Source: Chloroflexota bacterium
GTDB taxonomy: Bacteria; Chloroflexota; Dehalococcoidia; SHYD01; JACQUQ01
Reading direction: 5' to 3'
Assembly (NCBI GenBank): GCA_016210175.1
Contig: JACQUQ010000214.1
Location: 1-42,846, forward strand
Length of the DNA: 42,846 bases
The notes under the pieces were generated by a model, which was not told the origin of the DNA, did not search any database, and saw only the letters and a program-made list of their open reading frames with translations. The position numbers were made by a program, and so were the translations under genes. The number at the start of each line of letters is the position of its first letter. Within the stretch, counting starts at the first letter, position 1. Positions 7,751-29,246 of this stretch are shown here, piece after piece.

Positions 7751-8683
7751 TCAGGCTTGGTGGTAGCGGAGGACCGCCGCGCGCACGGCATCGTAGTCCC
7801 GCGTGCCCTCCTGGCCCAGGGCAGTGAGGTACGCGCTGCGGGCCTCCCGCTCCCGGCGCAGGCGGGCCACCGGCAGCCGCAGGCGCGCCGCAAGGGCGAC
7901 CCACACGGCCTGCTGGTCCGTAAAGTCATAGGTGTCGGTGGCAGCATCCCAGGTGCTGAGGGGGTCGGCGTGGACGGCGGCCGCATCCTCCCCCGGTCGC
8001 AGCAGCAGCACGCTGGTCACCCGCCGTACCAGACGGCGCTCCTGGTACCCCGCGGCCAGCAGGACGGTCAGGGGAACCCGTTGTGCGAAGGTGCGCCGGG
8101 GCACTCCCACCGGAGGCGGCTCCAGCTGTCCTACCAGCTCGTCGAGGCTTGCCGCGTGCATGGTTGCGGCCAGCGCGTAGCCGCGCCCGGCCAGGTCGAA
8201 CACGGTGGCGGCCTGACGCCCCCAGAGGTACCCCGGCAAGTGGTCGCTGATCTCGTTCACCAGAATGCGGGTGCGGGCCGGGTCGGTACGCTCCACAAAG
8301 GCGAAGGTCTCCCGCTGCCCGGCGGTAAACACGGGAGTGGCCTCGGGCGCCAGGAAGGCCAGGAGCGCGGTGAGGAGCGTCGTCTTGCCGACGCCAGGAG
8401 CGTGCCCGCCCACCACCACCAGGGAGGCATGGCGCTCGATGGCGAGCCAGAGCAGGGCAGCCAGGGGCGCGTCGAGCGTGCCCTCGTCCATCAGGTCGAG
8501 GACCGAGCGGAACTCCCGGCCCCACCAGAAGCCGCCGCCCCACCAGTCATCGGGGAAGTCGAAGCTCTGCACCGTCGTTGCCCCAAACCGCGTCGCCCAC
8601 CACCACATCGTCCCCACCGCCTGCCAGGAAGGTCGCGGCCAAACCGCCTTGCCCTCCCGCTGAGACACGGCTGCGTTTGGCAC
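7751..8683 (-). CDS. Orphan VirB11/CpaF-like secretion ATPase homologue
   Basis: 310 aa from GTG at 8683. Residues ~65-200 form a P-loop domain with Walker A GHAPGVGKTTLL and a later segment (GRGYALAATMHAASLDELVGQL) like the His/Walker region of type II/IV secretion and pilus ATPases, where 'TxHA' is typical. The N-terminus is unusually tryptophan-rich (PDDWWGGGFWW). The C-terminal ~80 residues are Arg/Ala-rich. No pilin, TadB/C or secretion gene is adjacent. A TTGGCA/TATGAT promoter lies immediately upstream; since its -10 sits two bases before the GTG, a downstream start such as ATG 8608 may be the true one. Confidence 0.6.
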   Translation of the reverse strand: MPNAAVSQREGKAVWPRPSWQAVGTMWWWATRFGATTVQSFDFPDDWWGGGFWWGREFRSVLDLMDEGTLDAPLAALLWLAIERHASLVVVGGHAPGVGKTTLLTALLAFLAPEATPVFTAGQRETFAFVERTDPARTRILVNEISDHLPGYLWGRQAATVFDLAGRGYALAATMHAASLDELVGQLEPPPVGVPRRTFAQRVPLTVLLAAGYQERRLVRRVTSVLLLRPGEDAAAVHADPLSTWDAATDTYDFTDQQAVWVALAARLRLPVARLRREREARSAYLTALGQEGTRDYDAVRAAVLRYHQA

Positions 8684-26104: not shown

Positions 26105-27604
26105 ATGGCGACCCAGGTCGAAGCGCGGACCTACAAGAACTACATCGACGGCCAGTGGGTGGACTCGACCACCGGCGAGACCTTCCCGAACATCAACCCG
26201 GCCACCGGCGAGGTGCTGGGGTACTTCCCCAAGTCGGGCAAGGCGGACATTGACCGGGCCGTGGCGGCGGCACAGCGGGCCTTTGCGCGCTGGCGTGCGG
26301 TCCCGGCGCCCCGGCGGGCGGAGATCCTCTTCCGGGCGGGCGAGCTGCTGGTGCAACGCAAGGAAGAGTACGCCCGCGGCATGAGCCTGGAGATGGGCAA
26401 GGTCCTGAAAGAGGCCCGGGGCGATGTCCAGGAAGCCATCGACATGACCTACTTCATGGCGGGGGAGGGCCGCCGCCTGTACGGTCACACCACCCCGTCG
26501 GAGCTGCCGGACAAGCTGTGCCTGACCTTCCGGATGCCCATCGGCGTGGTGGCCGCCATTACGCCGTGGAACTTCCCCATGGCTATCCCGTCCTGGAAGC
26601 TGATGCCCGCGCTCATCGCCGGGAACACCGTGGTCTTCAAGCCGTCCACCTGGACGCCGCAGTCGGCCTACAACCTCATCGCGGTCCTGGAAGAGGCCGG
26701 ACTGCCCCCCGGCGTGGTGAACCTGGTCTTTGAGCGGGAGGTGGGGGTGTCCCAGTATCTGGTGGAGCACCCCGGCGTGAGCCTGGTGTCCTTCACCGGC
26801 TCCACTGCCACCGGCACCGCCATCGCCACCATCTGCGCGCGCCAGAACAAGCGCTACTCCCTGGAGTTGGGCGGCAAGAACGCGGTCATCGTGCTGGCCG
26901 ATGCCGACCTGGACTTGGCGATGGACGGCATCGTGTGGAGCGCCTTCGGCACCACCGGGCAGCGCTGCACCGCGGCCAGCCGCATCATCGTGGAGCGTCC
27001 CCTGGTGGAGGAGGTGCAGCGCCGCCTGGTCGAGCGGGCCCGTGCCCTGCGCCTGGGCAGCGGCGTGGACCCCCAGACCGACGTTGGCCCGGTCATCAAC
27101 GAGGAGCAACTGAAGAAGATCCGGGGCTACATGGACATCGGCCGCGCCGAGGGCGCCCGTCTCCTGTGCGGCGGTGAGATCGCGCGGGACGGCGACCTGG
27201 GCAGGGGCTACTTCTTCCAGCCCACCGTCTTCGCTGACGTGCGCCCCGACATGCGGATTGCCCAGGAGGAGATCTTCGGGCCGGTCACCGATATCATTCC
27301 GGTGGACTCCCCGGAGGAGGCCGTGCGGGTGAACAACGCGACCCCCTACGGCCTGGTGACGTCGGTCTTCACTCGCGACGTCACCAAGGCGATGCGGGCA
27401 GTCGAAGGGATTACCACTGGCCTGGTCTACGTCAACGCCGGGACCATCGGCGCGGAGGTCCACCTGCCTTTCGGCGGCACCCGCAACACGGGCAACGGCC
27501 ACCGGGAGGGCGGCATCGGTGCCCTGGACGTCTTCACCGAGTGGAAGACGGTGTACATCGACTACTCGGGCCGGCTGCAAAAGGCGCAAATCGACGTCGC
27601 GTAA
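26105..27604 (+). CDS. NAD(P)-dependent aldehyde dehydrogenase
   Basis: 499 aa, typical ALDH length. Cofactor and catalytic elements: [14 protein letters not shown] (oxyanion Asn), [16 protein letters not shown] (Rossmann glycines), general base Glu254 in LELGGKN, and nucleophile Cys288 in [10 protein letters not shown]. The EEIFGPVT motif is present. The C-terminal [21 protein letters not shown] is reminiscent of semialdehyde dehydrogenases acting on amino-acid breakdown products, but the substrate is not certain. The ATG has AGGAAGGAG upstream. It is monocistronic, between a terminator and a riboswitch-controlled unit. Confidence 0.93.
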
Positions 27605-27756: not shown

Positions 27757-27785
27757 TTGACAGCGGGCCGGAACGCGGGTATGCT
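27757..27785 (+). promoter_or_regulatory. Sigma-70 promoter for riboswitch transcript
   Basis: TTGACA, 17-base spacer, TATGCT: near-consensus. The predicted start near 27792 begins the transcript just before the c-di-AMP riboswitch. Confidence 0.75.
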
Positions 27786-27803
27786 GCGGGGCAAGTGCAG
27801 AGA

Positions 27804-27930
27804 CGGCCGAGTCCCATTGCGGGAGCGGGGGATCCAAGGTTACAGCGTTCTCGCTGTAGGGGTGAATCGCGCAGCCGCGCGTAGGGTAGGACTCTTTCGG
27901 CCCGAACCCGTCAGCTAACCCCGTAGGCAC
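27804..27930 (+). promoter_or_regulatory. c-di-AMP riboswitch (ydaO/yuaA class)
   Basis: Conserved blocks of the class occur in order with correct spacing: GGGAGCGGGGGATCCA, GGGGTGAATC, GGGTAGGACTC, then CCCGAACCCGTCAGCTAACC with a closing CGTAGGC. Short GCC/GGC pairing closes the element. These riboswitches sense cyclic di-AMP and usually turn genes off when it is abundant, often cell-wall hydrolases or K+/osmolyte transporters. Here a terminator hairpin follows, and the controlled gene encodes an exported glycoside-hydrolase-like protein. Confidence 0.92.
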
Positions 27931-27948
27931 GCGAAAGAGGCCAGGTGT

Positions 27949-27983
27949 ACGACCAGGGCTTGCCTCTGGTCGTCTTCTTTTCT
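27949..27983 (+). terminator. Riboswitch expression-platform terminator
   Basis: An 8-bp stem (ACGACCAG/CTGGTCGT) is followed by the pyrimidine run CTTCTTTTCT, about 20 bases after the riboswitch and 50 before the start codon. It is placed to stop transcription before the gene when the aptamer is occupied; the exact antiterminator pairing was not worked out. Confidence 0.7.
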
Positions 27984-28034
27984 GGGCCCTGGCGTTTGCT
28001 CGGCCGCTTCCCAATCCAGCTTGGGAGGCGACCT

Positions 28035-29246
28035 ATGAAGATCCCCAGGTGGATGGCAAGTCCGCGCTGGCGCGCGGCGTGGGGGCGTGACGATCTGCGG
28101 CGTCACCGGCTGACCCTGCTGGGCGCGCGGTCTGGGCCGCGCCGTCCGTCACGCCGCTTCTCCTTGGTCCTGGCCCTCACCTCGGCGGCCCTGCTCCTGC
28201 TGCTGGCCCGCAACCACCCCGCGCTGGGCCAGGTGATGCAGGTGACGCCGACTGAGCCGCCCAACGTCGGCCTCACCTTTAGCAAGCGCCAGGCCGAGTA
28301 CCTTGGTCTGCCCTGGCGTGAGACCTTCCAGATGGCTCTGAACCTCTCGCCCCAGCTCGTCCGCTTGGGGGCCTACTGGGACGAGATAGAGTCCCAACCA
28401 GGCCACTACGATTTCTCGACGCTGGACTGGCAGCTCGACCAGGCCGCGGCCCAGGACCGCCAGGTCATGCTCACGGTAGGCATGAAAGCCCCGCGCTGGC
28501 CCGAATACTACCTGCCGACCTGGCTCATGTCGCGCCTGACCCTGCCCCAGGGCGCCCAGGTGTCGGACAGCGCCCGCCTGCGCACCCATGCCCTCGCCTT
28601 CGTGCGCACCGTCGTCCAGCGGTACCGTAGCCACGAGGTCATTGCCTACTGGCAGGTAGAGAACGAGCCACTGGACCCGTCCGGCCCTCACCGGTGGCGG
28701 ATTGGCGCCGATTTCCTCCGGCAAGAAGTCGAACTGGTGCGCGCGCTGGACGAGCAGCGCCGTCCGGTCATCGTCAACATGTTCGTCGCCACCCATCCCC
28801 TGAACGCCGCTCCGCCGTTGCGCACGGAGGTCAGGAAACGGGCCCGTACCATCCTGGAGACGGCCGATATCCTGGGGTTGGACCTCTATCCCAGCATGGG
28901 GACGCGGATCTTGGGCTTCGACGTGTATTTCAACTGGCTGCAATGGCCGTGGGAGCGGCCGGCGCTTGACCTCCAGCGGCTGGCCCGCCAGCACGGCAAA
29001 GAGACGTGGATCATCGAAGCGCAAGCCGAGCCGTGGGAGCCGTCGAGCGTGGTCTACACTGCTGCCCGGCAGAGCCGGAGCGTCCAGCCCAGCACTGCAG
29101 TGAGCATCTTTGGGCGGCTCCAGGCCGCAGGCTTCCAGCACATTCTGCTGTGGGGGGTGGAGCACTGGTATATGCGCTTGCAGCGCTACCGCGATGGCAC
29201 GTGGTGGGAAGCGATGGAGCCCCACTTTCCCCAGGGCGCGGGTTAG
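28035..29246 (+). CDS. Exported glycoside-hydrolase-like (TIM-barrel) protein under c-di-AMP control
   Basis: 403 aa from ATG 28035 (GGGAGGCG upstream). The long basic N-terminus followed by a hydrophobic helix (around residues 47-63) is a signal peptide or anchor. The rest resembles clan GH-A (GH5/GH42-like) hydrolases: RLGAYWDEIESQPGHYDF near the start of the barrel, WQVENEP as the acid/base Asn-Glu pair, and TWIIEAQAEPW as a plausible nucleophile strand. The specific polysaccharide is unknown; the riboswitch context points to the cell envelope. Its stop overlaps the convergent MFS gene's stop (TTAG). Confidence 0.78.
   Translation: MKIPRWMASPRWRAAWGRDDLRRHRLTLLGARSGPRRPSRRFSLVLALTSAALLLLLARNHPALGQVMQVTPTEPPNVGLTFSKRQAEYLGLPWRETFQMALNLSPQLVRLGAYWDEIESQPGHYDFSTLDWQLDQAAAQDRQVMLTVGMKAPRWPEYYLPTWLMSRLTLPQGAQVSDSARLRTHALAFVRTVVQRYRSHEVIAYWQVENEPLDPSGPHRWRIGADFLRQEVELVRALDEQRRPVIVNMFVATHPLNAAPPLRTEVRKRARTILETADILGLDLYPSMGTRILGFDVYFNWLQWPWERPALDLQRLARQHGKETWIIEAQAEPWEPSSVVYTAARQSRSVQPSTAVSIFGRLQAAGFQHILLWGVEHWYMRLQRYRDGTWWEAMEPHFPQGAG

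Follow-up and report, generated by a model that had tools for sequence, protein, structure and literature searches.

Why should a c-di-AMP riboswitch stand in front of a glycoside hydrolase gene? The known targets of switches of the ydaO/yuaA type (RF00379) are functions of K+, amino-acid or osmolyte transport or peptidoglycan hydrolases, whereas here the aptamer precedes the gene of a clan GH-A glycosidase in a metagenome-assembled genome (MAG) of Chloroflexota. The window, that is, the whole stretch of DNA that was analysed, is 42,846 nucleotides long. From its letters alone, the original prediction proposed a ydaO/yuaA riboswitch with a near-consensus promoter before it and a terminator after it, controlling an exported glycosidase-like protein that would be an unusual target.

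A complete riboswitch leader precedes a single gene

The following features were located in the leader and the gene behind it:

27757..27785, + strand: sigma-70-type promoter TTGACA-17-TATGCT (10/12 matches; 1 found vs 0.0 expected in shuffles)
27795..27944, + strand: c-di-AMP (ydaO/yuaA) riboswitch aptamer, RF00379 (88.8 bits, E 1.4e-19, model positions 1-134 of 134)
27892..27899, + strand: aptamer pseudoknot, loop strand CTCTTTCG (8 bp with 27932-27939)
27932..27939, + strand: aptamer pseudoknot, 3' tail strand CGAAAGAG, pairing with the loop strand
27936..27941, + strand: AGAGGC, proposed antiterminator strand, overlapping the pseudoknot tail (complements GCCTCT at 27962-27967, in the loop/3' half of the terminator)
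27949..27983, + strand: intrinsic terminator with a 10-bp stem, a 5-nt loop and a T-rich tail (about -15 kcal/mol; pseudoknot strand outside)
28023..28028, + strand: Shine-Dalgarno sequence GGGAGG, read from the sequence
28035..29246, + strand: predicted ORF of a 403-aa exported clan GH-A glycoside hydrolase (ATG at 28035, end at 29246)

The covariance model of RF00379 was matched over its entire length and far above its cut-off of 38 bits (Rfam cmscan, Infernal). The terminator hairpin at 27949-27973 with its tail CTTCTTTTCT was found once, compared with 0.3 expected in shuffled sequences. Riboswitch, promoter and terminator were thereby confirmed and terminator-based control was supported, every part lying where it had originally been placed. 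Minimum free energy folding of the leader gave an unremarkable result (z -1.06), which is no surprise for an aptamer with a pseudoknot in a leader rich in G+C, and was set aside as uninformative; the evidence for the riboswitch is the covariance model.

The likely start codon at 28035 lies about 50 nt past the U-tract of the terminator. An aldehyde dehydrogenase gene upstream of the leader, on the same strand, ends at 27604, and the gene 3' of the glycosidase, encoding an MFS transporter, is convergent. Thus, the switch governs one gene.

The glycosidase belongs to an unnamed family of clan GH-A

The protein begins with a long arginine-rich N-terminus followed by a hydrophobic helix (residues 40-59) which may serve as a signal peptide or a membrane anchor. 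Structure prediction, suggested as a check, gave a TIM barrel, (beta/alpha)8, for the rest of the chain (AlphaFold; pLDDT 91, mostly >90). In clan GH-A enzymes, the catalytic acid/base glutamate follows strand 4 and the nucleophile glutamate is located on strand 7. Two glutamates that are invariant in an alignment of 87 sequences, E211 (WQVENEP) and E328 (IIEAQAEPW), are found in the model after strand 4 (strand 203-208) and on strand 7 (strand 323-330), respectively. Judged by alignment and model, the protein has an intact clan GH-A active site with E211/E328 as its predicted catalytic pair. Together with the putative export helix and the Foldseek matches described below, this agrees well with the proposed exported GH-A-like protein. 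We infer hydrolase activity, with a surface or extracellular glycan as the substrate.

The family of the enzyme was sought by profile, alignment and structure searches. In Pfam, GH42 was matched only in part (40 bits, residues 94-212, profile positions 12-138 of 376) and GH10 at the borderline. When the PDB was searched by alignment, endoglucanase H, beta-galactosidases and PslG were returned (E ~1e-9 to 1e-8), and Foldseek matched the model to GH42, GH35, GH164, GH10 and PslG at a TM-score of ~0.5; the PDB structures matched have 11-19% identity to the protein. Assignment as a GH42 beta-galactosidase was rejected because only about a third of the profile, and not the whole catalytic domain, is matched. 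Membership in GH39 (PslG) was rejected as well, the profile match being a 50-residue stretch only, with a Foldseek TM-score of 0.47 at 19% identity and no polysaccharide operon nearby, and so was membership in GH10 or GH35, where the matches are partial or at threshold only. GH42, GH35, GH10 and GH39 (PslG) share the TIM barrel and the positions of the glutamates with the glycosidase, but the latter is set apart from them by the low identity and TM-scores and by motifs of its own. Over its full length, the protein agrees with none of the named GH families, and it is assigned to an unnamed GH-A family, characterized by the motifs PRWPE, WQVENEP and ExQAEPW and occurring in Chloroflexota, Omnitrophota, Cyanobacteria and Patescibacteria.

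Direction of control in the glycosidase leader

The strands CTCTTTCG and CGAAAGAG of the leader sit where the crystallised ydaO RNA of T. tengcongensis has the complementary strands CUCCUUCG and CGAAGGAG; the paper that gives its sequence also describes a stable pseudoknot (PMC5393176). In 93 switches of the class, the loop and tail strands of the same switch scored a mean of 8.66 in pairing, whereas combinations with swapped tails scored 6.90 (sd 0.15); the pseudoknot pairing therefore covaries. In the glycosidase leader, the tail occupies 27932-27939 and the terminator begins 9 nt past it, at 27949, so that pseudoknot and terminator are compatible with each other.

Firmicute switches located before an APC permease gene and ablA also have the pseudoknot strand outside the terminator, and the separate intrinsic terminator of the Firmicute RF00379 members is likewise present here. 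For a tandem Na+/c-di-AMP leader with such a layout, OFF behaviour was both predicted and measured (PMC9337991), and the kdp switch of B. thuringiensis is an OFF switch too (PMC6488665). More generally, the leader shares its aptamer consensus, loop-tail pseudoknot and OFF layout with the ydaO/kimA-type RF00379 switches (B. subtilis ydaO, B. thuringiensis kdpFABC, S. coelicolor rpfA). As in known OFF switches, the terminator stays free when the pseudoknot is formed, so that c-di-AMP should repress the glycosidase; we consider it quite probable that the leader responds to c-di-AMP by switching off transcription of one gene, that of the GH-A glycosidase.

The proposed mechanism is as follows. The leader transcript would start from the promoter at 27757-27785. 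At high c-di-AMP, the aptamer would close and its 3' tail CGAAAGAG would be locked in the loop-tail pseudoknot, leaving the downstream terminator to form and to stop transcription before the glycosidase gene. In other bacteria, c-di-AMP falls at low K+ or under hyperosmotic stress. A similar fall would free the AGAGGC of the tail for pairing with the GCCTCT of the terminator, the polymerase would read through, and the GH-A glycosidase would be made as an exported or membrane-anchored protein. This antiterminator comprises 6 bp, which on their own do not exceed what shuffled sequences give (p 0.23), and is less stable than the terminator; in sibling switches, antiterminator forms of 8-10 bp were revealed, e.g., GAGGCATAGC with GCTATGCCTC. 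Both the direction of control and the antiterminator pairing in the glycosidase leader are what we infer from these arrangements.

Targets and two opposite layouts of the switches across the class

RF00379 was matched in 155 genomes out of 393, and 94 distinct switches of the class were analyzed for their targets and layout. The recognised targets include trehalose-6-phosphate synthase (GT20), TreT and an operon that encodes MscS together with a TreZ-like alpha-amylase; others are YihY-like proteins, small conserved proteins, a family of zinc-ribbon proteins and membrane glycosyltransferases of GT2 or GT39. Trehalose synthesis and the GT2/GT39 glycan synthases are the main ones. The genome containing the glycosidase has a second switch (L102, G000:C72:4272-4402), which precedes GT39-like and GT2 genes extending downstream to position 8217. 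Counterparts of its GT39-like target are present in two genomes of the same order (G002 and G003).

A terminator could be called in 51 switches, and in 43 none passed the criteria. The position of its start is bimodal: in 32 switches it lies at least 27 nt after the core, which we call layout A, and in the other 19 the distance is 10-16 nt (layout B). In layout B, the pseudoknot tail doubles as the 5' strand of the terminator; the ligand-stabilised pseudoknot and the terminator are thus mutually exclusive, which predicts an ON switch. All seven resolved GT2/GT39 switches have layout B, while layout A was called automatically in eight out of nine trehalose switches and in 9/9 after the ninth, L286 (OtsA), had been read by eye. 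The automatic call of an inverted layout for L286 was rejected on this reading, its U-tract being accounted for by a compact terminator that lies outside the tail. The association of layout with target (Fisher p 1.4e-3 for the automatic call, 9e-5 after L286) is uncorrected for common descent, and the p-values are descriptive because the data that suggested the rule also served to test it. Six genomes (G000, G003, G026, G028, G054 and G058) contain both layouts.

The second switch of the glycosidase genome uses its pseudoknot tail as the 5' half of the terminator and is thus predicted to be an ON switch. Two GT2 switches (L155 and L156) have no U-tract; here a hairpin that overlaps the tail seems to cover a purine-rich, SD-like stretch immediately ahead of the start codon and would appear to be the translational equivalent of layout B. 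We see about an even chance that the class wires one aptamer in opposite ways, OFF for trehalose synthesis and the glycosidase and ON for the GT2/GT39 glycan synthases. c-di-AMP switches have been described as OFF switches (PMC9960051), and no description of ON switches was found in the literature covered, which did not include the primary target-list and crystal-structure papers (Nelson 2013; Block 2010; Gao 2014; Jones 2014). Our literature search likewise revealed no dedicated paper on c-di-AMP switches in Chloroflexota. The opposite wiring of the sibling switches is a more novel lead than the glycosidase switch itself.

Several other arrangements were observed in this set. Among the recurrent targets, a family of small zinc-ribbon proteins with the motif CPRCRGSMIxERDWYGxY (L124, L128, L141, L264, L295 and others) has an ON-type layout wherever a terminator was called. 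A second family of small proteins, of ~110-160 aa (L103, L106, L122, L123, L130 and L272), is always found behind the OFF-type layout. MFS-like transporter genes of one family follow switches without a recognisable terminator in L116 (no Pfam match), L254 and L302, and L111 (G030:C101) contains two c-di-AMP switches ~3 kb apart on one strand.

Possible role of the glycosidase

An envelope polysaccharide role of the enzyme is plausible in view of its fold, its export signal and the fact that the second switch of the genome has glycan synthases as its target. The RpfA and NlpC/P60 cell-wall hydrolases, which are controlled by c-di-AMP switches, are likewise exported; like them, the glycosidase is a presumed hydrolase of a surface polymer and is predicted here to be repressed by c-di-AMP. 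It differs from them in fold and catalytic chemistry and, by its sequence, is no peptidoglycan enzyme. The regulon is usually seen as one of K+ transport, osmolytes and peptidoglycan hydrolases; the switch described here adds a glycosidase to it. If the opposite wiring proposed above holds, a single messenger would activate polymer synthesis and shut off a putative glycan hydrolase; should the sibling switches indeed be ON for glycan synthases, the making and trimming of surface sugars would be under reciprocal control by c-di-AMP, together with the making of trehalose.

Tentatively, the enzyme behind a functional OFF switch may instead act on environmental glycans or sugar reserves and not on a polymer of its own envelope, supplying a nutrient or an osmolyte during low c-di-AMP. 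This possibility is favoured by the OFF layout shared with the trehalose-synthesis genes of the class and by the neighbourhoods of the homologues, which are stand-alone genes without glycan-synthesis neighbours: in 19 neighbourhoods, no repeated partner and no conserved polysaccharide operon was found. However, the second switch of the same genome controls a GT39/GT2 glycan-synthesis pair, and cell-wall hydrolases are what OFF switches are known to control in Actinobacteria.

Conservation of the pairing of switch and glycosidase

No c-di-AMP switch was detected by a motif search of 124 loci (~120 homologue loci, some of them overlapping) drawn from Chloroflexota, Omnitrophota, Cyanobacteria and Patescibacteria, or by Rfam at the 12 nearest homologue loci. 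The view of the GH-A-like protein as an unusual target is supported, and among the ~120 homologue loci the link with the riboswitch is unique to this genome. Conservation therefore does not vouch for the pairing, which within the loci searched looks like a lineage-specific capture: the riboswitch class is a known one and its target is new and specific to the lineage.

It is rather unlikely that the pairing is an accident of recent gene transfer with little regulatory meaning. Besides the lack of a switch at the other homologue loci, this would fit the distribution of the closest homologues (48-56% identity), which occur in other classes of the phylum, those of the same class reaching at most 39%. 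However, promoter, aptamer, terminator, Shine-Dalgarno sequence and start codon are all intact and in the correct order, and nothing else lies downstream on this strand, the next gene being convergent.

A broader survey around the same-class homologues revealed one genome, G313, in which a switch lies 1.9 kb from the homologue; it is on the other strand and precedes an unrelated MFS-like gene, and its proximity was judged a coincidence. At two loci (L044, 3542-3631; L183, 2606-2695), a c-di-GMP-II-GAG riboswitch (58.8 bits) is located directly 3' of a glycosidase homologue on the same strand. At L308 (G008:C331, 3414-5812), a distant homologue (26% identity) adjoins, in convergent orientation, an aldehyde dehydrogenase gene whose product is 72% identical to the one encoded just upstream of the glycosidase switch.

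Mode of control, host genome and ligand supply

It is improbable that the glycosidase switch is an ON switch or acts on translation. The opposite terminator layout was called automatically in 19 switches of the class, and translational control by this class of switches has been reported in C. glutamicum (PMC9960051); in the glycosidase leader, however, the distance from pseudoknot tail to terminator places the switch clearly in the OFF group, and the Shine-Dalgarno sequence lies ~40 nt past the U-tract.

The contig (C189) belongs to a 3.47-Mb MAG of 274 contigs, estimated to be 91% complete with 6.6% contamination. Its G+C content is even (66-72%), and the MFS gene adjoining the glycosidase has 62% identity to its counterpart in a same-order genome; the contig is therefore probably native to the host genome. 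That an assembly chimera or a contaminating contig joined the riboswitch to a foreign gene is very improbable: the source is a MAG with the above contamination, but switch and gene are embedded in a 42.8-kb contig whose G+C is even, with the convergent MFS gene behind them, and switches of the same class are present in same-order genomes.

Finally, the search for a diadenylate cyclase proposed with the original prediction was successful, as a DAC domain (PF02457) is encoded in the same genome (G000:C6:7712-8062; E 7e-41). Among 60 related genomes, 22 have both DAC and the switch, one has the switch only, three have DAC only and 34 have neither. DAC is thus present in 22 of 23 switch-bearing compared with 3 of 37 switch-free genomes (Fisher p 3e-12, relatedness ignored).
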